A stretch of 64,000 nucleotides of DNA from Frankia sp. QA3. GTDB lineage: Bacteria > Actinomycetota > Actinomycetes > Frankiales > Frankiaceae. Under the pieces are notes generated by a model. That model did not search any database, was not told the DNA's origin, and saw only the letters and a list, made by a program, of their open reading frames with translations. How positions within the stretch are numbered: the stretch's first letter is position 1; every line of letters begins with the position of its first letter. A program made the translations under genes and the position numbers. The DNA is taken from NCBI RefSeq assembly GCF_000262465.1, contig NZ_CM001489.1:5370741-5434740 (forward strand), read 5' to 3'. Below, in pieces: positions 6,580 to 64,000 of this stretch.

Positions 6580-6651
6580 AGCCCCGTCCGCCCACCATCC
6601 CCGCCCCCGGTCCACCCGGCCGGGGACGGGATGCACCGGCCGTCGCACGGG

Positions 6652-6720
6652 CGGGCACGGTCGGATTACGGTGGAGATCTACGCGCACGCCTCCCTGGAG
6701 GGCAAGCGCGTGGCGTTCTA
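6652..6720 (+). pseudogene. C-terminal fragment of a tyrosine integrase
   Basis: The frame ending at the TAG of 6718-6720 reads ITVEIYAHASLEGKRVAF. This is the characteristic end of phage/ICE tyrosine recombinases, including the catalytic-tyrosine neighbourhood (EIYAHAS). Only about 20 codons are recognisable; the rest of the gene is absent upstream. It lies at the left edge of the defence island and is best read as a scar of the element that delivered it. The remaining DNA to 6986 has no convincing gene. Confidence 0.6.
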
Positions 6721-6986
6721 GAAGTTTGTTGAGCGGTTGGGGTGATGTGCCACCGGCCGCCCGCATACGCCGAAGTACCTTCTTGACCACCTCCCCGCCG
6801 GGCAGCACGGGAAGAGGCGGCAGCAGGCGGCGTCCTGCACGATCGTCAGGACCGGCGGAACACCGAACTCGTCGAGACCAGACTGACGGCCTCGTAGAGA
6901 TCGGCCACGGCGTTCTCGGGAGTGCCGCCGAGCCCGTGCGCGCCGCCAGCCGCAAGGTTCGGAGCAGCTGCGATCACGGCGGCGGA

Positions 6987-43072: not shown

Positions 43073-43275
43073 ACCTCGGCCCCGGCTGATCCGACCCGGC
43101 CGTCCACGACCGGTAAGCGGATATCCGCCGGCGCACACTCAGGAATCTGGTGGCTTCGGGCCGCCGAGTCGCTGATTCATGTTTCTTTTCGGTTGAGAGG
43201 CTGACGCGCCGGCAATCCCGCTGCCGACCGGCCCACGCCGCTCCGGACCGACCCGCAATCCGCCCGGCGGAAACG

Positions 43276-43401
43276 TCATGGCCGCATGGGCTCTCATGGC
43301 CGCATGGGCTCTCATGGCCGCATGGGCTCTCATGGCCGCATGGATTCTCATGGCCGCATGGGCTCTCATGGCCGCATGGATTCTCGTGGCCGCACAGGCA
43401 G
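43276..43401. repeat. 18-bp tandem repeat array (7 units)
   Basis: Units of TCATGGCCGCATGGGCTC run from 43276 to 43401 in the order A-A-A-B-A-B-C, where B ends GGATTC and C is a diverged copy. They sit in the ~440-bp gap between the leader peptide and the first monooxygenase gene. The unit is a multiple of three, so all six frames stay open across it and give artificial repeat proteins; no ribosome site or domain supports a real gene. It could form RNA structure affecting downstream expression and is likely variable in copy number. Confidence 0.9.
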
Positions 43402-43515
43402 GCGCCACGTCGCCGTGGCCGCATGCGCCTCGCCGGCGGCGCCGCGTTCGACTGTCCAGCCTGTGCCGCACGAGCGCCGTGCCGTGCAGGCGACCAATGA
43501 TCCTGAAGGAGCACA

Positions 43516-45969: not shown

Positions 45970-47262
45970 TGCCTACCCGCAGGAACTTCCTCGCCTTGTC
46001 GGCGAGCTCGCTGGCCCTGGCTGGCCAAGTCCTGGAAGGTCTCCGATGACGCCCTGAGCTACACGTTCGTCCTCCGCGACGACGTCACGTTCCAGGACGG
46101 GACGCCGTTCGATGCCCAGGCGGTGAAGGCGAACTTCGACCATGTCGTGGCGCCGGCGACGAAGTCGCGCAACGCCAAGACCCTGCTCGGCCCCTACCAG
46201 CGGACCGACGTGGTCGACGAGCACACCGTGGTCGTCCGTCTGAGCACGCCCTACTCGCCGCTCCTGGGCGGCCTCGCGTCGGCGTATCTGGGCTTCCACT
46301 CGCCGGTCGTGCTGCGCGAGCATGCCGCGGACATCGGCTCCGGCGGGAAATCGGTGGTCAGCACCGGCCCGTTCGTGTTCTCCAGGCTGACCCCCGGCCA
46401 GCAGGCGGTGTTCACCCGCCGCAAGGACTACCGGTGGGCACCGGCCTCGGCGCCGCATCAGGGCGACGCCTATCTCGATCAGTACACGGTGGAGTTCCTG
46501 ACCGACGACGCCGCCCGGGTCGGCGCGCTCACCTCCGGGCAGCTCGACATCGCCGACCAGGTGCCCGCCGCCCGGGTCGCGCAACTGCGCAGGCAGCCCG
46601 GCATCAAGCTGGTCGACCGGGACAAGATCGGGGCGCCCTTCACGTACGCCCTCAACACCACCACGTTTCCCTTCAACGAGCGGGACGTGCGGCTCGCCGT
46701 CCAGTCCGGGGTCGACGTCAGGACCATCACCCAGGGGCTGTTCCAGGGTGCGTACAGCAACGGCTGGTCGGCGCTGACCTCCTCCACTCCCGGTTACGAC
46801 CGCTCGGTGGAGAACACCTGGAGCTACGACAAGAACCGCGCGGTGAGCCTGCTGACGAAGGCGGGGTTCACCGCGACCGACGGCGGCGGCTATCGCACCC
46901 GCAACGGCCAGCGGCTGAGCGCGACACTGGCCTACGCGGCGGAGTTCACCACGGCGGAGCAGAAGAACTACCACACGGCGCTCAAGGACGCCCTCAAGCA
47001 GATCGGGATCGAACTCGTCCTTCACCCGCTGGCAACAGCGGGGATCGTGCAGGCGCTCGGTTCCGGTGACTACGACATCGGCGCCGGTGCGGCCACCGCG
47101 ACCGACGCCTCGGTGCTGCGCACGCTGTTCTACTCGACCGAGCTTCCGGCCGACGGCGGAGCGAACACCACCCGCATCAGGGACGCGGAGATCGACGGGT
47201 GGCTCGACAATGCCCTGCGCACGCAGAACACCGCGGCCCAGAACGCGCTCTACGCGAAGGTG
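45970..47262 (+). pseudogene. ABC solute-binding protein (family 5), internally deleted and 3'-truncated
   Basis: The ATG at 45970 starts a Tat-type signal (TRRNFLALSASSLALAG). The frame then shifts directly to the mature protein (LAKSWKVSDDALSYTFVLRD), skipping the ~80 residues that family 5 (DppA/OppA-type) binding proteins have there. The rest is good SBP sequence: FQDGTPFDAQAVKANFDHV, VVSTGPFVFSRLTPGQQAVF, and LNTTTFPFNERDVRLAVQSG. Near 47262 the homology ends where the tRNA-derived attachment sequence begins, about 50-80 residues before a normal C-terminus. So the gene carries both a deletion and an insertion break. No permease genes follow. Confidence 0.75.
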
Positions 47263-47271
47263 CAGCACGGT

Positions 47272-47324
47272 GGTGGGCAGGGGCGGGGTCGAACCGCCGA
47301 CCTTCCGCTTTTCAGGCCGAACTG
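47272..47324 (-). repeat. Attachment site: 3' half of a tRNA, copy 1
   Basis: On the minus strand this 53-bp stretch reads from the anticodon loop CTGAAAA through GCGGAAGGTC, the T arm GGCGGTTCGACCCCGCC and the acceptor end CCTGCCCACC. This is the 3' half of a tRNA whose anticodon would be GAA (Phe). No 5' half is present. It is identical to 56651-56703. Integrases of actinomycete elements use such tRNA 3' ends as att sites. Confidence 0.8.
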
Positions 47325-47398
47325 GCCGTGTTGTCGGTGTCCGTGGACGTGTGCTCTCGGCTGTGGAGGACCGCCGACGTGCGTGCTTGGCTGCTGCC

Positions 47399-47421
47399 GT
47401 TGCTACACCCGTTGCTACACC
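47399..47421. repeat. Two 11-bp direct repeats beside att copy 1
   Basis: GTTGCTACACC at 47399-47409 and 47411-47421. The same pair occurs at 56778-56800 beside att copy 2, and a variant pair (GTTGCCACACC, GTTGCCATAC) at 56580-56601. The spacing near the tRNA half suggests integrase arm-binding sites. Confidence 0.65.
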
Positions 47422-47733
47422 TCGGCACGAGCGCGAGAGCACTGTGCCGGCCTGGGCGGCAGCCCTTTCGCCCACCCCAATACCCGAGCAGGTCCGTACC
47501 CTCTGCGGGTGGCTGCGCCGGTCCAACGTCGACCTAAGCCGACTGGAGTCCACGCTGGGTACTGGGCGTCGCCGCATCCGCGCCCGCAACGTCCCTCGCC
47601 CCGAGGAGATCGGCTGCCTGGGTTTGACGCGGGGACCACGACCATATTTGAGCATCGATTTGGCTTGGCTCGATGCCGCGCCGGGATGGTCGGTCGGGAT
47701 GGCCGTATGGCTGCCCGTCGGAGGCGGTGCCCG

Positions 47734-48554
47734 GTGAATATTCGGCGGGAAATATCGTCGGCCGTGTCCCGTGACGAGTCCTCGGGTGTTGCCGGGCCTG
47801 CATACGCCGCGAAATTCGCGACCGTGGCGATCGGGGCCGTGGTGGCGTTGGCGTTCCGTTTTGGTTTTGGGAATTATTTTGCCCTCGGTCCGTGTTCGGG
47901 TGTCCCGATCCTTATTGCGCCCGTGGTAGCCCCGGCGGTGGATTTTTCTGTGGTCGGGCTGTTGCTGGGTACCCGTCAGCTGGCGCCCGCTGTACGGCGG
48001 TCCCGCCGATGTGCAACGGTCCGCTCGGCGTCTGCTCATCTTCGCCAGTCTGGTCACATTGACCCTCAATGTCGTGGAATCGTTGATCGCCGGCCAGTAC
48101 GGTAAGGCCGCGTCGACGCCGTCGGCCCGCTGCTGATGATTGGTTGGCAAAAGTCGGTCCTGGACTGATCCAGGCCATGCAGGAGACGGGGACACGCGCA
48201 CCCCTGCCGGCTTCACGCACCGCGGAGGATTCGCATGAATCGACGGTGGTGGATCAGCGCGCGCTGCCCGCGCAGGCTCGCCCGAGTGCCAGGGCTGCGA
48301 CGCCCTCTGCAGGCGCGAGGAGTCATCGGAATGGTTCGGGTGCATGGGAGCAGGACATGCTTCATCGAGCGCGGGCTGAAGATGTGCTGCACTGGCAGCA
48401 GCACCAGCGCCCGATCTCCGCGGAGACACTGCGCAAACGCCTCCGCGTCGACGCCGGCACCGCCCGTGGGCTGGTCACGCAGCTGCGTAGCGACATCCAC
48501 GCCCAGATCGAAGACACCGCCAGACCGGTCGGCGGTGAGCCCCAGCAAGTCTGA
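47734..48554 (+). pseudogene. DUF2637 (SpdB-like) gene, decayed
   Basis: Homologous throughout to the intact gene at 56983. The frame from GTG 47734 reads GFGNYFALGPCSGVPILIAP and VVAPAVDFSVVGLLLGTRQL; after about 47985 the homology moves to a second frame (GGPADVQRSARRLLIFASLV), then near 48115 and 48150 to others, ending KVGPGLIQAMQETG and HQQHQRPISAETLRKRLRV. At least three frameshifts show it is inactive. DUF2637 proteins are membrane proteins of actinomycete plasmids and ICEs. The same relative place after an att site in both copies marks it as element DNA. Confidence 0.8.
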
Positions 48555-48681
48555 TCGAAGGGGGTAACGGCGATCCCCGTGGCCGCGGGGATCGCCGATG
48601 ACCATCTGCTACGACTGACACTCCGATCGTCACGGACCGCCCGTCGCCAGTGAACGCGCGCGCCGCGCACATCGCCTCATT

Positions 48682-49698
48682 TCAATGATCGCAATGTTCC
48701 ACGTGCGGGGTCTTCTCACGTTGGGATACCAAGTAGAGATAGATCAGGGAGGGGATGAGCAGGGCTGCGCCGATGGCGAGCGCCCACAGCACCGGGTGGA
48801 GAACGGTAGTGCCGCTGGCGGCGGCGTGGGCAGTGAGGCCGGGGAGCATGCTCGGGTACTGGGCGATGCCCCAGGCCCAGAGCACGCCGGTGACCGCGAG
48901 GGCCGCGGTGAGGCGGACGAGCAGGTAGCGCCGGGCCAGCAGCAGCGCCAGGGACAGGACGCCGGCCGTGCCGCTGGTGATGACCAGGGGAAGCGCCTTG
49001 CCGGTGAGCCCGTCGAACAGGTGGGGGGCGTCGGCGCGCAGGACGGGGAGCCCGCCCAGGGTGAGCGCGCCCAGGAGCAGGCCAGTGATCAGAGCGCGGC
49101 GTCGGAATGCCTCGGTCAGCGTGGGCTCGCGGGCGCGGCGGGCGTCGGCGGTGAGGTAGACCGCGGCGAGGTAGGCGGTGGTGACCACGGCGATGACGCC
49201 GGTGGTGATCGAGGTCGGGTTCCACCAGCTGGCCAGAATGTCTCCCTCGGGGATGTCTGGTGGTATCCGCCCGGAGGCGACCGCGCCGAGGGTGGTTCCG
49301 AGGAAGAATGGGGTGACCACCGAGGAGAAGGCGAACGCCGCTCCGAACATGCGTCGCTGCCACAGTTCGTCGCTGACCTTGCGGAAGGCGAACGCCGCGC
49401 CGCGGGCGATGATGCCCAGGGCCGCGAGAGTCAGCGGGATGTAGAGGGTGGCCGCGAACGGGGCGAACGCGGCGGGGAAGCACGTCCAGAACAGAGTGAT
49501 CACGAAGATCAGCCAGACGTGGTTTGCTTCCCACACTGGTCCGATGGAGTGTTCGATCAGGTCCCGCTGGGGTTGGCCTCGGTCGGCCCTGCCGGCGAGC
49601 AGGTCCCAGAGGCCGCCGCCGAAATCGGCGCCGCCGAACAGGGTGTAGAGCGTGAGCCCGATCCACAGCACCACGAGCAGCGTGTCCGCGGCGGTCAT
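48682..49698 (-). CDS. cydB: Cytochrome bd ubiquinol oxidase subunit II
   Basis: A 338-residue membrane protein with about eight helices. CydB features are GGADFGGGLWDLLAGR near the start, GPVWEANHVWLIFVITLFW, and AWGIAQYPSMLPG. With CydA it forms the high-affinity quinol:O2 oxidase used in low oxygen. The ATG overlaps the cydA stop as ATGA (49695-49698). No cydDC assembly transporter follows; the strand ends in element DNA. Its location between two att sites suggests it travels with a mobile element. Confidence 0.95.
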   Translation of the reverse strand: MTAADTLLVVLWIGLTLYTLFGGADFGGGLWDLLAGRADRGQPQRDLIEHSIGPVWEANHVWLIFVITLFWTCFPAAFAPFAATLYIPLTLAALGIIARGAAFAFRKVSDELWQRRMFGAAFAFSSVVTPFFLGTTLGAVASGRIPPDIPEGDILASWWNPTSITTGVIAVVTTAYLAAVYLTADARRAREPTLTEAFRRRALITGLLLGALTLGGLPVLRADAPHLFDGLTGKALPLVITSGTAGVLSLALLLARRYLLVRLTAALAVTGVLWAWGIAQYPSMLPGLTAHAAASGTTVLHPVLWALAIGAALLIPSLIYLYLVSQREKTPHVEHCDH

Positions 49699-51104
49699 GA
49701 TCTGGTTCCGTCCGCGTCCGCGTCCGTGTGGGCGGGTCCGGGCGGGCTTTCCTGGGGTGCCACGGCTCGTGCGGGTACGGGGCCGAGGCGGGCGAGGCGC
49801 CGCAGTACGTAGATCGTGGCGACTGTGAGGGCCGCGTAGACCGTCAGGACGATCAGCAGGCCGGCCAGCAGGCCGGGTTGCGGGTTGACCGCGTCGCGGG
49901 TGAGCAGGACGTTGTAGACGACCCAGGGCTGCCGGCCGACCTCGGTAACCACCCATCCGGCCTCGACCGCCAGCGCGGCGGCTGGCCCGGCCACCGCCGC
50001 CGCTCGGAGAAACCAGCGGCTGTGGGGCAGGTCGCGGTGGCGCCACCAGGCCAGCGCAAGCCACATGCCGAGCGCGACGAGGGCGAACCCGATGCCCACC
50101 ATGAGCTGGAAGCTGAGGTGCACCACGTTGACCGGTGGTTGTAGCTCGGCGGGCGCCTGGTCGAGGCCGAGCACGACCGCGTCGGGATCCCAGTGCGCGA
50201 GCAGGGACAACGCGTTGGGGATCTCCAGGGCATGGCGCAGTTCCCCGTCGGCGTAGACGCCTCCCAGTGAGAGTGGCGCGCCTGCCGTGGTGCGGGGCAG
50301 CCCCTCGATCGCGGCGAGCTTGAGGGGCTGGAACTCCGCCAGGAAATGCGCCGCCCAGTCACCCACGACCACCTGGACCGGGGCCAGCGCCGCGGCGGCG
50401 GTGAACGGGACCAGGAATCCCAGCCGATGGTGCCGGTCTCGTTTGCCGCGCAGCAGCGCCACGGCGTAGACGGCGGCGGTGCCGAAGCCGGCGACCATGA
50501 GCGCGGCGATGATCATGTGCACGGTCTGCGGCGGGGTGGCCGGGTTGAACATCGCTTCCCACGGGCGCACTCCGGTGACCTCTCCGTTGGAGATGTCGAA
50601 GCCGCGGGGCTGGTTCATCCAGGCGTTCGCGGTGACCACGAAGAACGCCGAGGCGACCCCGGCGATAATGATAGGAAGCCCGGTGAGAACATGCACCCAG
50701 GGTCGCAGTCGGTCCCAGGCGTAGAGGTAGATTCCCAGGAAGATCGCTTCGATGAAGAAGGCGAATCCCTCCAGGGTGAAGGGCAGGCCGATGACGTCGC
50801 CGAACCTGCCCATCAGGCCGGGCCACAACAGGCCCATCTCGAAGCTGAGAATCGTGCCGGAGACCGCTCCGACGGCGAACAGCACCCCCATCGCCCGCGC
50901 CCAGGTGCGGGCCAGTGACTCATAGGCCACGTCGCCGGTACGCAGGGCCCGCCACTCCATGAACACCGTCAGGGCCGGCATACCGACCCCGAAGCAGGCG
51001 ATGATGATGTGCCACCCCAGCGAGAAGGCCATCTGTGTCCGTGCCGCCGCCAGGTCACCCGGTGTCGCCCCCTGGGCCAGCACACCGGCCAGGAGGTCCC
51101 GCAT
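49695..51104 (-). CDS. cydA: Cytochrome bd ubiquinol oxidase subunit I
   Basis: A 469-residue membrane protein. Heme-ligand regions are seen: SLGWHIIIACFGVGMPALTV (His for heme b595), TPPQTVHMIIAALM (His for b558), and the C-terminal GRQPWVVYNVLLTRDAV. The periplasmic Q-loop appears to be the short type. The ATG at 51104 follows GGGAGGCCGGGACC. A frame open to 51275 lacks a ribosome site. Upstream, 51105-51467 has no certain gene; a plus-strand 44-codon frame (51282-51416, SELKRFGKELVAAGPGLIDL) looks protein-like but is unsupported. Confidence 0.95.
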   Translation of the reverse strand: MRDLLAGVLAQGATPGDLAAARTQMAFSLGWHIIIACFGVGMPALTVFMEWRALRTGDVAYESLARTWARAMGVLFAVGAVSGTILSFEMGLLWPGLMGRFGDVIGLPFTLEGFAFFIEAIFLGIYLYAWDRLRPWVHVLTGLPIIIAGVASAFFVVTANAWMNQPRGFDISNGEVTGVRPWEAMFNPATPPQTVHMIIAALMVAGFGTAAVYAVALLRGKRDRHHRLGFLVPFTAAAALAPVQVVVGDWAAHFLAEFQPLKLAAIEGLPRTTAGAPLSLGGVYADGELRHALEIPNALSLLAHWDPDAVVLGLDQAPAELQPPVNVVHLSFQLMVGIGFALVALGMWLALAWWRHRDLPHSRWFLRAAAVAGPAAALAVEAGWVVTEVGRQPWVVYNVLLTRDAVNPQPGLLAGLLIVLTVYAALTVATIYVLRRLARLGPVPARAVAPQESPPGPAHTDADADGTRS

Positions 51105-51467
51105 GGTCCCGGCCTCCCTGTCCTGCACTGCCCTGCGGTTGGTTTGCTGGATGTGAGGTCCGAAGGTAGTCATCCGGCGACATGTCGATGGCGCGGTCCG
51201 TGACGGAGGACGGCCGCCGCGTGGCCCTCGCAGAGAACGATCGAGGGTTCGACGAGAAAACACGAGGCCGTACATCCGGCTGTGAGCGAGCTTAAACGGT
51301 TCGGCAAGGAGCTGGTGGCGGCGGGTCCAGGTCTTATAGATTTGTCGGTGAAGGCGTGTCTCGAGGTGCCGACAGATGCGGAGGTGGACCGATCCGCAAC
51401 GTGCCGTACAAGATAGTTCCGAAATGCTGGGCGACCTCTCCGCCCGACGGGGTCCCGTCGTCGAGCA

Positions 51468-51872
51468 TCACAGAAACCATCGGCTCTCGCGGAGCCTGGG
51501 CGACGTCACGATGTCGGAGTTCCAGTTCGAGACCTCACGCAGTTGACCGAAGAGTCTCGCGATGAGGTCGGAGTACGACACCGTGACGGGCTGCCGGCTG
51601 GGATAGAGCCGGCGCCACGACATCGCGGTGAACCGGAAGATCTGCCCGGCGATGTAGTCCAGGTCGGTGAACGTCGACTCGCAGTGCACTTTGATCAGGA
51701 GTGGGTGTGGCGCGCCCTGTACCGGTGTCTCAGGCTCCGGTGGCGCGGCGACAAGCGTCGGATTCTCCTTGGTTGCGGAGATGATCTGCCGATACTGTAG
51801 CTGGAGCGCGGCGTGGCACCGCCGCAGACGTCGCAGTCCAGATAGAGATCCGACCTGGGGGTACGCCGCCAC
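51468..51872 (-). pseudogene. Probable C-terminal remnant of a prokaryotic Argonaute (Piwi domain)
   Basis: The last ~110 codons read LLIKVHCESTFTDLDYIAGQ, IFRFTAMSWRRLYPSRQPVT, VSYSDLIARLFGQLREVSNW and end ...LRESRWFL. This follows the final helices of Piwi domains of the long pAgo type: an AxQIFxFTxxSWR segment, then P-V-T-x-x-Y-S-x-L-I-A, and a terminal W-F-L. The frame opens at 51872 without a start; sequence further upstream (to ~51976, other frame) may be more of it. The MID, PAZ and catalytic residues are missing. It lies before a SNF2 helicase gene. Confidence 0.5.
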
Positions 51873-52131
51873 ACGTCCCGCGCGATGAAGGCGAGCCCCG
51901 AGACAAATTCACGCACCGTCGTCTCGACGTCGTCGCGACTACGGCCATGCGCGTTTCGGCTACTCCGCACAGCCAATCATCATCTCATTCGACCGGCCCA
52001 GCCTGATGGCAATCGCGAGCAGATCGCCCTGTTCATAAATAATTCTCCGCGACCACACCCTGTAGCCGACCCGCGCCCAGCGGTGTCTCGATTGGGATTG
52101 GCAGGGGTCCGGTCGCGCGGCGCCAGGCATG

Positions 52132-54900
52132 TCAGCCTGCGGTCGGGTCGTCAGCCGTCTGGACTGCCGGCTCAGCGAACAGCCGCGCACGCTCGGCCGC
52201 GACGATGATGTCGTGGACCAGCTTGTTCTCGGACACGTCGAGCGCTTCCGGCGCGCTGGCAGCGGTCGCGCTGATCCGGGCGAAGTCGTCGAAGACGGAC
52301 CCCTTGCGTGCGAGGAGCTCGCGGATCCTCTGGTCCACGCCCTCCTCGGACAGCAGCCGATGGACCTGGACGGACTCGAGCTGCCCCATTCGTTGGGCGC
52401 GCCTGATGGCGTGCTCCTCGGTGGAGGGCTTGAGCTGCGGTTCGCACAGGATGACGACGGATGCGGCCTGGAGGTTGAGCCCCGTACCGACAGCGAGGAT
52501 CGACGCGATGAGTACTGCTCCGCCGTCGGCGGCGGAGAACTCGTCCACCAGAGGTTGGCGTTGCGCGGCGGGCGTCTTGCCGGTGAGCGGGCCGAAGACC
52601 GGGCCAGGTAGTTCCTGCTTGACGTGATCCAGGACGTCGAGGAAGAAGGAGAAGACGAGCACCCGTCGTCCGTTAGCCACCGCCTCGGCGACGATCTCCC
52701 TCAGCCGGCCGAACTTCTCCGAGTGGCGCCCCTGGATCATCGCGGCCCGCCTCATGGCCATGAAGTTGCCGTCTCGCACCGCCTCCTGGTAGGCAGCGAG
52801 ATCCTTGGCGGACATCGGGAGCACCTCGTCGACCTCGACGAGCGGGGGCAGTTCGGGGAGCACGTCCGCCTGGTTGCGGCGCAGATAGGCCGGGGCCACC
52901 TGTGCGCGGAACCGCCGGGGGGACAGGCCGCTGGTATCTACCACGAGCCTGGGCTGCACGTGGCGCACGAGGGTGACGAACTCGTCGAGACGGTTCTCCA
53001 GCGGAGTGCCGGTCAGCAGCAGGGCACGATCGGACATCTCCAGAAGACGCGCCGCCAGCTGCGATCTCTGCGTCTCCGGTTTCTTGATGTAGTGCGCCTC
53101 GTCAACGACCACGCAGCCCAGTTCGACGTCGTGGAGCTGGGGCAGCAGCCAGCGCAGGGTCTCGTAGGTGGTCACGGCGACGCCGCCGTCGCGCCGCCAG
53201 TCGTCCACGGCTGCGTCGCGTCTCGGTCCGTGGACGCGATGGGGGTCCAGCGTCGACTTGGCCGAGATTTCCCGGGTCCAGTTCGTGACCACCGCGGCGG
53301 GACAGACCACGATCGTGTGACGGTGGCCGTGTGCGCGAAGGTGGGCGAGCACGGCGAGGGCCTCGACGGTCTTGCCCAGTCCCATCTCGTCACCGATGAT
53401 GACCTTGCGTCGGGCCAGCGCGAACCGGGCGCCGAAGCTCTGATAGCCGCGCAGTGTCCCGACGGTTAGGTGCTCGGTGTTGAGGGACGTCGCGCGGACG
53501 GCGGCGACGATCTGCTCGGGCAGGTCGCCATGGATCCTGTTCTCGTCCTCGGGTGCGACGCCAAGCTCGGTCAGCATGCCGAAGTAGTCGGCGGGCCGGG
53601 CGAGGAAGTCCTCCCACGGGTCGGCAGCTGGTACCTGGCCCGGTTGGACGTCGCTGACCGAGGCCGCCCGGCGCAGGACCGAGGTGACGCCGGTCAGGAA
53701 CTCCTGCGCGGACCGCCCGGCGAGCGGGACCACGGCCAGGCGTTCAGGATGGCGGCCAAGCGCCTGTGCGAGCGGCGCCAGTTCCTGGGCACGTGCCAGG
53801 TCCCAGGCCGCGTTACGCAGCCTGCGGGTGGCGTCCCAGGCGCCAAGCAGACGCAGTAACCGGGTGGCCTCCAACGTCTGAAGCCTGATGTCGATACGGA
53901 CCGGCATCTCGTCGTAGGTCGTCTGGCGCAGTGTCTGCGCGGCTCCCAGGAACCTGGCCGCCAGGGTCGACCCGATACCGGACACGCCTTCCAGCGCACG
54001 CCCGCGGTCGAGCACCGCCTGCACGGTCGTGATGCCGGCGTCGGTCAGCAGGTTGACGCGCAGCCGGTCCCGGGTCACCTCCCGGAGCCGATCGACGGAC
54101 ATGGCGGCAAGCCGACTGCGGGTTTCGGTCCGTCGGACCTGGTTACTCGCCTGGACTGCGGCGGCCCGGTGAGCCGCTTCCGACTGCAGGACCTGGTCGA
54201 TCATGGTGATCGCCTGGCCGAGCCCGGCGACGACATGGCCGTCGAGGAGTTCGAGACCTCCGGAGTCGGGAGCGCCGAGGTGTTCGGCGAGCCCGATCCC
54301 AGGATCCAGTGCATCCGCCACACTCATCCCACGGACGCTGTCGGGGTTCGGCGTCAAACTGGCCAGCAGACCGGGCAGGTCGGTCTCGACTGCCTGGTCT
54401 CTGTAGCGGATGAGGAGAGTGCCGGCTTCCGCAGCGGCGCTACGTCGTGTGGGGCGGCTGAGGAATCGACGGGCGCTGAGCAGAACCCGCGCGTCGCCGA
54501 TGATGCCGGGGACGTCGGTGACGAGGTCCCCGATGTCCTCGGCGTCCAACTGGGCGAGGTCGGGGAGATGCGAGCGCAGCGCGAGGGCGCGGATCAGGCT
54601 TTCGTCCGTTTTTCGTAGGGGGAGGACTCGCCAGACTGACACGCCGTCGCGAGGAACGTCGATGGCGGCGCGACGCAGTTCCTCGCCGGCGACCCTCGCC
54701 TCCTCGACAATTCTTGAACGCTCGGCGAGCAAGCGCTGGGCCTGCGCCAGCCAGCCACTTATCTCCTCGACAGCAGTGCGCAGCCGTTCTCTTTCTGCCC
54801 TGTCCATCTGCCCCTGGATCCCCCAGATTGTCGTGGCAAACAGATCAATGGTGCCATCAACGCCATGGTTTAGCTGCAAGAACGTAGAGAAGGAGGCCAT
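52132..54900 (-). CDS. SNF2-family DEAD/H helicase with HhH region
   Basis: A 922-residue SF2 ATPase. The N-terminal ~300 residues are helical and include a helix-hairpin-helix-like stretch (LLTDAGITTVQAVLDRGRAL, EGVSGIGSTLAARFLGAAQ). The helicase core follows: VIIGDEMGLGKTVEALAVLA (~505), VVVDEAHYIKKPETQRSQ (~600), LLLTGTPLENRLDEF, and C-terminal ASILAVGTGLNLQAASVV and RRAQRMGQLESVQVHRLLSE. Such helicases recur in defence loci with Argonaute or methylase partners. The ATG at 54900 has a weak ribosome site; an internal ATG at 54807 is possible. Confidence 0.85.
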   Translation of the reverse strand: MASFSTFLQLNHGVDGTIDLFATTIWGIQGQMDRAERERLRTAVEEISGWLAQAQRLLAERSRIVEEARVAGEELRRAAIDVPRDGVSVWRVLPLRKTDESLIRALALRSHLPDLAQLDAEDIGDLVTDVPGIIGDARVLLSARRFLSRPTRRSAAAEAGTLLIRYRDQAVETDLPGLLASLTPNPDSVRGMSVADALDPGIGLAEHLGAPDSGGLELLDGHVVAGLGQAITMIDQVLQSEAAHRAAAVQASNQVRRTETRSRLAAMSVDRLREVTRDRLRVNLLTDAGITTVQAVLDRGRALEGVSGIGSTLAARFLGAAQTLRQTTYDEMPVRIDIRLQTLEATRLLRLLGAWDATRRLRNAAWDLARAQELAPLAQALGRHPERLAVVPLAGRSAQEFLTGVTSVLRRAASVSDVQPGQVPAADPWEDFLARPADYFGMLTELGVAPEDENRIHGDLPEQIVAAVRATSLNTEHLTVGTLRGYQSFGARFALARRKVIIGDEMGLGKTVEALAVLAHLRAHGHRHTIVVCPAAVVTNWTREISAKSTLDPHRVHGPRRDAAVDDWRRDGGVAVTTYETLRWLLPQLHDVELGCVVVDEAHYIKKPETQRSQLAARLLEMSDRALLLTGTPLENRLDEFVTLVRHVQPRLVVDTSGLSPRRFRAQVAPAYLRRNQADVLPELPPLVEVDEVLPMSAKDLAAYQEAVRDGNFMAMRRAAMIQGRHSEKFGRLREIVAEAVANGRRVLVFSFFLDVLDHVKQELPGPVFGPLTGKTPAAQRQPLVDEFSAADGGAVLIASILAVGTGLNLQAASVVILCEPQLKPSTEEHAIRRAQRMGQLESVQVHRLLSEEGVDQRIRELLARKGSVFDDFARISATAASAPEALDVSENKLVHDIIVAAERARLFAEPAVQTADDPTAG

Positions 54901-55535
54901 TCAGCTCTGACTACGCAAATACGACAAACCAGCAGAAACAAAGCCTAATACGCCGAGCGACTCTTCCGATCACTCCCCGGTGCAACCCTCGGACAGCGAG
55001 CAGGGCCATCACCCGGCGCATCACCGCCACTTTCGGTGTCCGACAGCGATGCTCACCAGGAGGCGCTGGTGGTCATCGGATGACCTGCCGACGCCGCAGA
55101 ACATCGCGGCCACCGTCGGAGGACGTCATGGTGGGAGGGTTGTGCCAGACGAGGCGGAGGTTCCGTCCAGCGACGGCGAAGATCTTCACGGCGCAATCAG
55201 CCGAGTTCACCGGCGAGGATATGCGCGGCTGGCACCTACCCGCGATCTTCTCGGGGTAGACGGCGAACGGATAGTCTCGGAAAGCTCCACGCTCGAACAG
55301 GCGGTCGCGCTCATCGAGGCCGCGGCCGGACCTGTACCGACGCCTCCCATCCAGTCGGCACCAGGCAGTCTTGCCACATGACTCCTGCGGCGGGCACGGG
55401 TGTTGCGGGATTTCGGGCCTGCCGCTCCAGACCAAGCACGTGCTGGCCGCAGCCGACAACGCTTCCGCCAGTGGATGGCATGTGGCTCGGCGGATCGCAG
55501 CCTTCTCACCGTGCCGCTAACCGCTAGCGCGAGGG
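54901..55535. other. Gap without a supported gene
   Basis: Several overlapping frames cross this 635-bp stretch, but none has a good start or recognisable domain. A minus-strand run ending near 55075 (SSPVNSADCAVKIFAVAGRN) looks protein-like and may be part of a lost gene. Confidence 0.4.
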
Positions 55536-56197
55536 TCAGCTGGGGCGACGCGGATGGCACGGAAGATCCGCTTCGGATTCGTAGAGGTTCTCGAACGCGC
55601 GGGCCGCTGGATCGGCGCGGAACGCGGCGAGGCGAGTGCACAGGTGTTGGACCCGGTCGGAGGTGCGTGTTGATCCTGCGCAGGCGTCGAGGCGGACGAG
55701 GTGGGTGGTTTCCTCGACAGTCCGTGGAGGTCGCCTGTCTGCAGGTAGGCCTCGGCGAGCCAGGAACGGTAGAGGGCGGCTTCGCGAGCGTGATCTTCGT
55801 CGCAGCGGGCGACCGCGTCGACCAGCAGTGGTTCGGCGCGTTGCGGGATGCCGAGCTCGACGTAGCAGCGGCCAGCCATCACCTGGGTCTCGTTGTCGTC
55901 GAGCCAGTACACCCACGTCGGTCCGTCGTCAGGGTGTCGCTGGTCGTAGTGCCGTTCCACCGCGGCAAGCGCTCTCTCCGTGGCGGGCCGGTCGCCGGCC
56001 TTCGCGTGTGCCCAGGCGATCCGTTCGTACAACAGCGCCAGAGTGGCCGACATGGCGGAGTTCTCCGCTCCGCGCAGGGCGGTACGGGCCAGCAGGATCA
56101 CGGTGCGCGGGTCGTGCTGATTCGCGAACTGGTAGCTCAACGTCGAGATCAGGTTCGCCGCGACCGGGCTGTTGCCCACGGCATGTGCGGCTTTCAC
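55536..56197 (-). pseudogene. C-terminal part of a TPR-containing regulator, frameshifted
   Basis: The frame from 56197 reads NSPVAANLISTLSYQFANQH, ALLYERIAWAHAKAGDRPAT and EPLLVDAVARCDEDHAREAA, a TPR pattern found in the C-terminal half of actinomycete XRE-family regulators. After AYLQTGDLH it diverges, and the homologous ending (TVEETTHLVRLDACAGSTRT ... AFRADPAARAFENLYESEAD) lies in the next frame. The N-terminal HTH is missing. A one-base frameshift near 55745 and the truncation make this a pseudogene. Confidence 0.6.
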
Positions 56198-56579
56198 CTG
56201 TCGAGTCGGACCAGGCCCTGGACATCGGACCCGGTCGAGTCAGGCATGCTGCGACGCGGAAATGCCACACAGATTGGTGCGGAACCCGCTGGCGAGCGGA
56301 TCAGGTACCAGCTCTTACGCAGGTTGGTGATGGTGTGTCGCGGACCGTCCGCCGCACAAGCGGACGGTCCACCAGCCCCGATCTTGAGCACCATTGCAGG
56401 TCATGGCACCGACACGACCGGGCCAGACTAGCTTCGTTGCCATACAAAACCCATACCGTGTGGCAACGTCCGTGGACACGGGCCTCGTGACCTCCCACCC
56501 GGAAAGCGGAGGTCGATTCCACCATTTACGCAGGTCAACCCGGGTGGCAGACGGGCCGCCACCGGGATCACGCGACGCC

Positions 56580-56601
56580 GTTGCCACACCCGTTGCCATA
56601 C
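56580..56601. repeat. Variant 11-bp repeat pair left of att copy 2
   Basis: GTTGCCACACC (56580-56590) and GTTGCCATAC (56592-56601) resemble the GTTGCTACACC pairs at 47399 and 56778. They lie 50 bp to the left of the tRNA-half, so att copy 2 is flanked on both sides, as an integrated attachment site would be. The gap 56198-56650 has no gene. Confidence 0.55.
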
Positions 56602-56650
56602 AACGATCAAAAAGTGATCGACAAATCCTGCTATTCTCGCAGGTCAAAAG

Positions 56651-56703
56651 GGTGGGCAGGGGCGGGGTCGAACCGCCGACCTTCCGCTTTTCAGGCCGAA
56701 CTG
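56651..56703 (-). repeat. Attachment site: 3' half of a tRNA, copy 2
   Basis: Identical over 53 bp to 47272-47324, in the same orientation, 9379 bp away. On the minus strand it carries the GAA anticodon loop, T arm and acceptor end of a tRNA without the 5' half. Similarity continues more weakly for about 100 bp to the right of both copies, including the GTTGCTACACC pair. Confidence 0.8.
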
Positions 56704-56777: not shown

Positions 56778-56800
56778 GTTGCTACACCCGTTGCTACACC
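56778..56800. repeat. Two 11-bp direct repeats beside att copy 2
   Basis: GTTGCTACACC at 56778-56788 and 56790-56800, the same arrangement and distance from the tRNA half as at 47399-47421. Confidence 0.65.
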
Positions 56801-56982: not shown

Positions 56983-57807
56983 GTGAGCCCCACCATGACG
57001 AACCCCGCCGAGTCGAACAACGACGCTGCTCCTCCTCTCACGGCAGCGGTCGTCAAGCTCGTCACCGCGACGATGGCCGCCGTCGTGGGCCTGACGTTCC
57101 TGTTCGGGTTCGGCAATGTCCTCGCGCTCGGGCTACGCCTCGGCGTCCCGATCTGGGTCGCACCCCTGGTCGCTCCCGCCGTCGACCTCTCCGTCCTCGG
57201 GCTCCTCCTGGGAACCCGACACCTCGCCGTGCACGGCGGCCCAGCCGAAGTGATGCGGTCAGCGCGACGCCTCCTCATCTTCTCCAGCACGGTCACCCTG
57301 GCCCTGAACATTGCCGAACCTCTGATCGCCGGGGACTACGGCAAAGCAGCCTTCGACGCCGTCGGCCCCCTCCTCCTCATCGGATGGAGCGAAGTCGGCC
57401 CCGGCCTCCTCCAAGCCATCCAGAGCACCGGAACCACCGAAACCACCGTTCCGGATACGGCTGTCATAAAGTTCAGACGCAGAGGCGAAAACACCACAGA
57501 ATCTGCGGCATTGGCCGGACGGGGAAAATCAGAGGAACCACATCAGGAGGAGAGCAAATTTCGCGGGCATCGGCGGCGGTCCTCGGAGCAGGACCTGCTT
57601 CACCGAGCACGCGCAGAAGACACCCTCCATTGGAGTACACACAACCGGCCGATCTCCGCCGAGACTCTCCGCAAACGCCTTCGCATCGGCGCGCCGGCCG
57701 CCCGCAACCTCGTCACCCAGCTACGCACCGATACCAGCGCCAGACTCCACCCAGCGCTCACCGCCGGCACAGCTTCACCGTCTACCGAACCGGTCGACGG
57801 TCCGTAG
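56983..57807 (+). CDS. DUF2637 (SpdB-like) membrane protein
   Basis: A 274-residue protein (GTG 56983; ATG 56995 is an alternative). Four hydrophobic segments are seen: VTATMAAVVGLTFLFGFGNV, VPIWVAPLVAPAVDLSVLGL, LLIFSSTVTLALNIAEPLIA and AFDAVGPLLLIGWSEVGPGL. A charged C-terminal domain follows with LHWSTHNRPISAETLRKRLR, a winged-helix-like segment. The family is typical of actinomycete conjugative elements near attachment sites, where SpdB proteins assist plasmid spreading. The homologue at 47734 is decayed. Its role here is inferred from family and context. Confidence 0.8.
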   Translation: MSPTMTNPAESNNDAAPPLTAAVVKLVTATMAAVVGLTFLFGFGNVLALGLRLGVPIWVAPLVAPAVDLSVLGLLLGTRHLAVHGGPAEVMRSARRLLIFSSTVTLALNIAEPLIAGDYGKAAFDAVGPLLLIGWSEVGPGLLQAIQSTGTTETTVPDTAVIKFRRRGENTTESAALAGRGKSEEPHQEESKFRGHRRRSSEQDLLHRARAEDTLHWSTHNRPISAETLRKRLRIGAPAARNLVTQLRTDTSARLHPALTAGTASPSTEPVDGP

Positions 57808-58248: not shown

Positions 58249-58439
58249 ACCTGCTCGCCGGCGCGGGCGAGCGCGCGCCCGCGAGGACGATCCCCGCCTG
58301 ACGGCGGGCTGGGGCCGGGCCGACCGGCTTGGTCAACTCGACGACGCACCCATAAATCGATCAAGGAATATTTTGGGATCGTACGGCGATGGCAGGTAAC
58401 GTGGTACTCTGATGCTGCTAGTTGACGGGAGGTAGCGAG

Positions 58440-59522
58440 GTGACGCAGTTTGTGGCGAATGCTGCGGTTCTTGCTCTCGCCCGTGAGTCGCGGGGCCTGA
58501 CCCAGGCTGAGGTCGCTCGGGCGATGTCCGACCTGGCGGGCGAGGCTGTGTCGCAGGCATTCGTGAGTAAGGCGGAGGCCGGGCGGCTAGCGGTCTCGGG
58601 TGACCGGCTGGGCCTGTACGCGGCGGCGTTGTGCTATCCGGTCGAGGTCTTGTGCACGGATCCTGAGGTTCATGGCGTCGGGATCGGGCTGGTCTATCAC
58701 CGCCGGAAGGCGTCGCTGGGCGCGAAGGCTCTTCGTCGCGTGCATGCCGAGTTGATGTTCACGCGAAGTCAGCTGCGCGCCCTGCAGGTTGCCATAGGGT
58801 CGACGCCGAACCGCTTCCATCGGGTGGAACGCGGGCCTATGGATATTCCGGCGGAGATCGCCCAGCACGTGCGCAAGGAATGGGACCTGCCACCCGGCCC
58901 GATCGACGTACTGGTCGCAGCGGTCGAGGCAGCCGGAGGTCTTGTCATCGCCCGCGACCTGGACGCGGACGGCCTGGACGCGGTGACCCAGTGGACCGGC
59001 GACGAGCCGCCACTGTTCCTCATCAACCTGAAGGCGCCGACTGATCGTTTTCGGTTCAGCCTCGCGCACGAGATCGGCCACGTCTTCCTCCACGGTGGAG
59101 TCGGTGGCGGCCAGGAGATCGAGCAGGAGGCGGACGAGTTCGCCTCCGAGCTCCTCCTTCCCGCGGACGAGCTCCGCGGGAGCTTCACCGGGAGCGTCGA
59201 TCTGCAGCGGCTCATCGAGTTGAAGCGCTACTGGGGCGCGTCGATGGTCGCGCTCGTGCGCCGTGCTGTCACGCTCGGCGCGCTCAGCGACTGGCAGTAC
59301 CGCCAGCTCATGATCGAGATGTCGGCGCTCGGCTACCGCACCCGGGAACCCGCCGAGTTACCCCGCGAGCGCCCTCGGCTCGTGCGCCACCTCGCGCAGC
59401 AACTCGTCGTGTCGACCGGCTCGACGGAAGCCGCCGCCGCCCTGGTCGGTGTACTCCCGGACGAGTTCCATGATCTCTACTTGTCCCCCGGCGGTGACGC
59501 CGACCCCATCGAACTCTCGTGA
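58440..59522 (+). CDS. HTH-XRE regulator with ImmA/IrrE (M78) metalloprotease domain
   Basis: A 360-residue protein. The N-terminal XRE-type HTH covers residues 8-70 (LARESRGLTQAEVARAMSDL, VSQAFVSKAEAGRLAVSGDR). The C-terminal M78 peptidase has the zinc motif FSLAHEIGHVFLHGG (~209) and the distal Glu region EQEADEFASELLLPADELRG. ImmA/IrrE enzymes cleave repressors on DNA damage or phage stress, so this protein may be a self-controlled switch. The GTG at 58440 follows GGGAGG. The gene directly downstream starts 8 bp after its stop, forming a two-gene operon. Confidence 0.9.
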   Translation: MTQFVANAAVLALARESRGLTQAEVARAMSDLAGEAVSQAFVSKAEAGRLAVSGDRLGLYAAALCYPVEVLCTDPEVHGVGIGLVYHRRKASLGAKALRRVHAELMFTRSQLRALQVAIGSTPNRFHRVERGPMDIPAEIAQHVRKEWDLPPGPIDVLVAAVEAAGGLVIARDLDADGLDAVTQWTGDEPPLFLINLKAPTDRFRFSLAHEIGHVFLHGGVGGGQEIEQEADEFASELLLPADELRGSFTGSVDLQRLIELKRYWGASMVALVRRAVTLGALSDWQYRQLMIEMSALGYRTREPAELPRERPRLVRHLAQQLVVSTGSTEAAAALVGVLPDEFHDLYLSPGGDADPIELS

Positions 59523-62834: not shown

Positions 62835-64000
62835 TTATGCGGTGAGTGCTTCGGGTGTCACGCTGATCTCGGGTGTGTCGGACGGCGTGTCTCGCGCGTC
62901 GACTTTCGCGAGGATTTCCACGCCGAAGTAGCGGTGGGTTTCGATCCACTCGTCGTGTTGCTCGGCGAGGACGGCGCCGACGAGCCGTATGATGGCGTCA
63001 CGGTCGGGGAAGATACCGACGACGTCGGTGCGCCGGCGGATCTCCTTGTTCAGTCGTTCCTGCGGGTTCGACGACCAGATCTGCCGCCAGATCTCCCGCG
63101 GATAGCTGGTGAACGCGAGCAGGTCCGCTTTCGCTTCTTCCAGATGGGTCGCGGCGCGGGGTAGTTTCTCGGTCAGCGCGTCCACGACCCGGTCGAACTG
63201 CACCGCCACCTCGTTCGCGTCCGCCTGATCAAAAACGGTCCGGACCAACGTCGCGACCCATGGCTGCGACGACTTCGGGGTGAAGGTGAGAAGGTCCCGC
63301 AGGTAGTGCGTCCGACATCTCTGCCAGGAGGCCCCGGGCAGAGTCGCGGCGATCGCGTTCACCAGACCGCGGTGCGCATCCGAGGTCACCAGCCGCACCC
63401 CGGACAGCCCCCGGGCGACCAGGCCCCGGAAGAACGCCAGCCAGCCGGCACCGTCCTCGCTGGACACGACCTCCAGGCCGAGGATCTCCCGGTGCCCGTC
63501 GCCGTTCACCCCGACCGCGAGCAGACAGTGGACGTTGACGACCCGGCCGTCCTCACGGACCTTCATCGTCAACGCGTCGGCCTGCACGAACCGGTACGGC
63601 CCGGCATCCAGCGGCCGCGACCGGAACGCCTCGACCTGGCCATCGAGATGCTTCGCGAGCTCCGACACCTGCGACTTCGAGATGTGCGCGACCCCGAGCT
63701 GCTCGACAAGCTTGTCCACCCGGCGCGTCGAAACCCCCAGAAGATACGACGTGGCGACCACCGAGATCAGCGCCTGCTCGGCGCGTCTCCTCCGGGTCAG
63801 CAGCCATTCCGGGAAATACGACCCCTGCCGCAGCTTCGGGATCGACAGGTCGATCGTCCCGGCCCGCGTGTCCCACTCCCGCGTCCGGTAGCCGTTCCGG
63901 CGATTCGTCCGCTCCGGTGATATCTCCCCGTATTCCGCCCCGCAGATCCCGTCCACCTCGGCGCCCATCAACGCCTCCGCGAACGCCTTCACCATCGACC
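62835..64000 (-). mobile_element. IS256-family transposase, running off the window edge
   Basis: A 386-residue visible part of a mutator-type DDE transposase. Family segments are AEVDGICGAEYGEISPERTN, RNGYRTREWDTRAGTIDLSI, PKLRQGSYFPEWLLTRRRRA and WRQIWSSNPQERLNKEIRRR. The catalytic triad is Asp in VQADALTMK, Asp in LVTSDAHRG, and Glu in NPQERLNKE. About 20-40 N-terminal residues lie beyond 64000. The terminal inverted repeat should lie between 62775 and 62834 but cannot be confirmed without the other end. The frame itself is uninterrupted, so the element may be active. Confidence 0.95.

Follow-up and report, generated by a model that had tools for sequence, protein, structure and literature searches.

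Two tandem islands without integrase genes at a tRNA-Phe gene of Frankia sp. QA3 resemble accreted cis-mobilizable elements

Tandems of cis-mobilizable elements (CIMEs) formed by accretion are known among the ICESt1-related islands of Streptococcus thermophilus (PMC5704250). In Frankia EAN1pec, the AICEs Fean5518 and Fean5534 stand in tandem at a tRNA-Lys gene (PMC3218068), and accretion of AICEs and DAICEs at tRNA-Arg was described in Streptomyces, where one remnant lacks traB (PMC9513070). The arrangement that we describe here in Frankia sp. QA3, a nitrogen-fixing soil bacterium, fits both the known CIME tandems and the accretion of defective AICEs (PMC5704250, PMC3218068, PMC9513070). It shares with the S. 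thermophilus tandems the absence of integration and transfer genes, the preservation of attL and attR, the stacking of units, and a target gene left intact at one end. However, the host, the target gene, and the cargo are different, the QA3 stack is now devoid of a functional ICE, and its mobilization is only predicted. The likeness to the AICE/DAICE stacks (PMC3218068, PMC9513070) lies in the use of actinobacterial tRNA 3' ends, the direct repeats, the stacking, and the decay, but integrase and transfer genes are present in members of those stacks and in neither QA3 unit. The term tRNA-Phe is absent from the main text of the Frankia study (PMC3218068). Our additions to the known picture are the integrase-less state, a spacing rule for paired repeats (hereafter doublets), and a gene found at the left end of the units, together with a reading of such units as defence islands that we offer as a hypothesis.

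The window analyzed here is a stretch of 64,000 nucleotides (G000:C1:5370741-5434740, where G000 is the QA3 genome, a single scaffold of 7,590,853 bp), and positions are given relative to its start. QA3 was published as a draft scaffold assembled from 121 contigs (PMC3622976). We read about 94 kb, i.e., the window and DNA beyond it, throughout which runs of N are absent. The first-pass annotation had reported two identical copies of a tRNA 3' half bounding a single 9.4-kb unit. The two copies (att copy 1 at 47272-47324, att copy 2 at 56651-56703, both on the minus strand) are indeed identical at 53/53 bp and have the same orientation, and the match of the repeat in the 94 kb has an E value of about 1e-17 to 1e-19, far beyond chance. 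The assignment to a tRNA holds for the first 46 bp, not for the rest. When we examined whether the repeat might differ from the 3' end of the host tRNA-Phe(GAA), these 46 bp matched it exactly (47 bp at att copy 1, counting the T just before it). The 7 terminal bp (CGAACTG) differ from the tRNA gene and are common to the two fragments only, and are therefore element DNA. The fragments cease to match tRNA-Phe within the anticodon region. The complete gene, predicted to exist as a third copy, was found where expected: ARAGORN places an intact tRNA-Phe(GAA) at G000:C1:5438946-5439022, on the minus strand (equivalent to 68206-68282), 4.2 kb past the end of the window, with a tRNA-Asp gene following it, and detects no tRNA gene inside the window. 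The bounds of the proposed unit are real (unit 1, 47272-56650, 9.4 kb), but copy 2 is also the start of another unit (unit 2, 56651-68205, 11.6 kb), which runs past the window end at 64000 and stops just before the intact tRNA-Phe. The order is att copy 1 at the outer (left) edge, unit 1, att copy 2 at the junction, unit 2, and the intact tRNA-Phe gene, and the window has no additional att copy left of 47272. The mean G+C of both units is 67.3%, lower than the 71.0% and 73.3% of the DNA on either side.

Both ends, left and right, are common to the two units. Similar DNA had been noticed after each att copy, and it extends over 208-213 bp at 77-79% identity and on into two copies of the left-end gene discussed below. 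The homology of the right ends had been missed: positions 56576-56699 and 68122-68255 are alike over about 120 bp. Each of the four unit ends carries one doublet of the form GTTGCYAYA-N3-GTTGCYAYA, with a spacing of 12 bp. In the left ends, the doublet lies 127 bp from the start of the att copy, both in unit 1 (47399-47419, plus strand, GTTGCTACAcccGTTGCTACA) and in unit 2 (56778-56798, plus strand). In the right ends, it is 71 bp from att copy 2 in unit 1 (56580-56600, plus strand) and 81 bp from the att start in unit 2 (at 68126, past the window); the step from 71 to 81-82 bp is nearly one helical turn. The 94 kb contain these four doublets only, all at the expected ends of the elements, while 30 simulated sequences of 94 kb had none and single motifs occurred in them at a rate of 0.3 per 94 kb. 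Identical spacings were found in the genomes G010, G008, G025, G002, and Parafrankia sp. EUN1f (G028). We infer that the doublets are putative arm sites of an integrase. At the sequence level, attL and attR are thus kept, as a core and arm-like doublets, in 4/4 unit ends. The unequal right-end distances (71 and 81 bp) and the divergence of the repeats there may reflect two integrase subtypes.

No integrase, relaxase, TraB, or Rep was identified in either unit, and the main ORFs of both units gave no Pfam match to FtsK/TraB, relaxase, T4SS, or Rep families. The tyrosine-recombinase domains of the genome are all distant from the array. The units do not have the AICE layout att - tra (FtsK-like) - rep - xis - int - att. 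As is expected of CIMEs, neither has an integrase gene nor, among the main ORFs scanned, conjugation genes. Integrases of one clade directly adjoin tRNA-Phe in four other Frankiaceae: G010 (which we take to be Frankia CcI3), G031 (Frankia sp. EI5c), G020, and G026. No relative of the G010 integrase was found in the QA3 genome at E<=1e-60. The integrases of EI5c and G010 are 98% identical and come with the same doublet, and the EI5c contig also has TraG/VirB4-like, coupling-protein, PrgI, and Replic_Relax genes, as in a T4SS ICE. This contig includes the right-end doublet and the integrase but does not cover both ends of the ICE, the left one being off this stretch. The element of G020 at tRNA-Phe encodes FtsK, RepSA, and an integrase, and in both G020 and G026 another arm repeat, GTTGCCGTCA, takes the place of the doublet. 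The integrases of these two genomes are 68% identical to the CcI3/EI5c type. Arm repeat and integrase type covary in the four cases seen.

The use of tRNA-Phe extends well beyond QA3. At least 13 of the 35 Frankiaceae genomes have an extra tRNA-Phe 3' fragment and the intact gene on the same contig, and the break within the anticodon region recurs across many genomes. One such array is in G025 (contig C110, L115-L117), where five fragments in 47 kb enclose metabolic genes, and where, from our reading of the ORFs, one interval looks like an NRPS-like biosynthetic cluster; we saw no integrase among the ORFs of this array. The unit closest to tRNA-Phe in G010 has an integrase and a CBASS cassette (cyclase, HORMA, TRIP13, and SAVED-PDDEXK). 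In G005 (presumably F. alni ACN14a), the metabolic genes next to tRNA-Phe were considered as an ancestral flank; they are missing from the QA3 genome and are therefore accessory. Hence, tRNA-Phe is a repeatedly used integration site across Frankiaceae, whose cargo includes a terminal oxidase, defence genes, and, in one relative, a biosynthetic cluster.

The gene content reported for unit 1 was recovered by the profile searches. These genes are all on the minus strand: cydB (cytochrome bd oxidase subunit II, 48682-49698, PF02322), cydA (subunit I, 49695-51275, PF01654), an ORF with the C-terminal stub of a class II pAgo (51468-51872, PADLOC pAgo_II, E=6e-37), an intact SNF2-type helicase of 922 aa resembling DpdE/DrmD (52132-54900), and a truncated TPR regulator of the NsdA family (55517-56197, NF053720, E=4e-36, positions 229-384 of 432) whose N-terminal part is missing. 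The cydA of unit 1 is the second of the genome. Its origin outside the lineage is pointed to by an identity of only 49% with the other copy of the host (G000:C1:4985627-4986985), against 66% with a homologue from another actinobacterial family. The pAgo similarity covers 85 residues at the end of the ORF (profile positions 640-724 of 724); the initial 47 residues of this ORF represent sequence flanking the SNF2 gene. We searched relatives for an intact SNF2-pAgo pair, and pAgo was absent beside the SNF2 homologues in the 4 stretches examined. One homologue, 91% identical, is near a left-end gene in a contig of a congener (L246), without cydAB between the two, so the cyd segment was probably either inserted later in QA3 or lost in that congener.

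Unit 2 encodes an HTH protein with an ImmA/IrrE peptidase domain, RmrA-like (58422-59522, plus strand), a Mutator/IS256-family transposase (62835-64076), a TPR-like protein of 1126 aa, and ORFs without an assigned family. The cargoes of the two units are mutually dissimilar. Hence, their common descent from one type of element rests only on the ends and on the left-end gene.

The latter follows the shared left end of about 210 bp in both units. It is open in unit 2 (56995-57807, plus strand), where it encodes 270 aa with a hydrophobic N-terminal half, and frame-broken in unit 1 (47776-48554, plus strand), where the copy has 47-48% amino acid identity to it. The protein belongs to no family of Pfam, NCBIfam, or PHROGs. 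DUF2637 and SpdB were considered as candidate names, but neither is supported by these databases, and the gene is therefore left without a name. A tRNA gene or 3' fragment, of several different tRNAs, lies at most about 1.2 kb upstream of the left-end gene in at least 17 of the 79 named loci. A CBASS cassette is found downstream of it in G010, and also, judging by sequence resemblance, in Amycolatopsis pretoriensis. The proteins downstream of left-end genes matched 91 PADLOC families and those upstream 39 (88 proteins on each side), which is not a clean contrast, as one protein can match several families, and enrichment in defence genes around this class is suggestive only. Certain relatives of the left-end gene have an integrase gene immediately adjacent, which means that not every member of the class lacks one. 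It is conceivable, although we would bet against it, that the left-end protein marks widespread actinobacterial cargo islands that are bounded by tRNAs and prefer anti-phage systems, and that would be moved by the integrases of co-occurring ICEs, with the sequence of the arm sites choosing the ICE. Separately, in L156 (also in L158 and L160), the left-end gene is followed by genes for a KAP-type ATPase, a QueC-like, and a TatD-like protein, which by eye resemble a Qat-like anti-phage system.

The outer edge of the array is less regular. The first-pass annotation had set the boundary at 47272, and an att copy does lie there, but it abuts a truncated gene and there is no evident clean chromosomal flank. 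This pseudogene of a family 5 solute-binding protein (46014-47268, plus strand) has an internal deletion of about 220 bp close to the 5' end, and its last 44 or so codons are missing, the cut falling precisely at att copy 1. Homology to four orthologues, which extend about 44 codons beyond the QA3 cut, stops at 47264-47268, and the tRNA fragment is entered at 47271. There is no right-end doublet left of att copy 1. The cut gene implies that the outer junction was rearranged or follows an older loss, and the edge may represent the original chromosomal side, shortened by a deletion, or the remnant of an older unit. We considered integration at a secondary site as the cause of the break, but the orthologues have no att-like sequence after the cut, and thus a pseudo-attB is not evident.

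We favour, with a probability of roughly 85%, the reading of the array as tandem CIME-like remnants accreted at one tRNA-Phe gene. The accretion of related integrative elements, already proposed from the first pass, is well supported by the shared ends and the fixed-spacing doublets, although neither element is self-sufficient. Each integration would have restored an intact tRNA gene, leaving a 46-bp 3' fragment at the outer edge, and the units would later have lost their integrase and transfer genes, or would have been built without them, while keeping attL, attR, and the arm-like sites. A duplication of the tRNA-Phe segment, or homologous recombination, without any site-specific integrase could also produce similar repeats and flanks, since tRNA fragments can duplicate passively. 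We give this very little credence, the least among the alternatives, as the copies are homologous only at the ends and in one gene, with unrelated cargo between them, the breakpoint in the anticodon region is found in many genomes, the doublets are at fixed distances, and integrases adjoin the same tRNA end in relatives. An origin as phage satellites or prophage remnants, instead of ICE or AICE derivatives, is slightly less implausible but still very improbable. Integrase-less, tRNA-bounded islands carrying defence genes are generally known among satellites too, but phage structural and packaging families are absent from the scanned ORFs, the PHROGs matches that name a function (helicases and a DNA methyltransferase) all concern the SNF2 protein, and the intact relatives at tRNA-Phe have RepSA/FtsK or T4SS-like genes.

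A different question is whether the units arrived one by one in the QA3 lineage or jointly as a ready-made tandem. The stretch from the right end of unit 1 through att copy 2 to the left end of unit 2 is contiguous in G025, which is of another genus (853 bp at 89%), and in G008 (462 bp at 85%), and the transfer of CIME-ICE tandems is on record (PMC5704250). However, this junction would form wherever two elements with such ends lie head to tail, so that the match favours neither scenario, and the cargo past the junction differs. We regard joint arrival as unlikely, if more credible than the two previous alternatives. Under accretion of CIME-like remnants, we infer from sequence both the order of integration and the mobilizability of the units, which look like stranded cargo available to the integrase of a passing relative. 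An integrase of the CcI3/EI5c tRNA-Phe type entering the cell would be expected to excise unit 1 as a circle of 9,379 bp, unit 2 as one of about 11.56 kb, or the pair as one of about 20.94 kb; without such a helper, a PCR for excision circles may well be negative. Pairing stranded islands with the integrase type expected to move them is concrete and testable, and the spacing of the doublets provides a way to spot islands lacking the integrase gene that island finders need for detection.

A few minor observations concern other places. At about 2.72 Mb of the QA3 scaffold (L009:9347-9472), a degraded tRNA-Phe fragment with left-end sequence is 84% identical to att copy 2, and no tRNA gene lies within 9 kb of it. 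Window positions 6641-6947 weakly resemble the C-terminal part of an integrase (53% over 36 aa), with no att fragment that we could find; they adjoin a 167-bp stretch that also occurs about 340-350 bp inside the tRNA-Phe att fragments of G002, G008, and G009. In G010 (C1:139000-178999, L103/L104), an inverted doublet is found at about 169.3 kb, with no accompanying tRNA fragment. Finally, an 18-bp unit (TCATGGCCGCATGGGCTC, with variants) is repeated in tandem at window positions 43258-43419.
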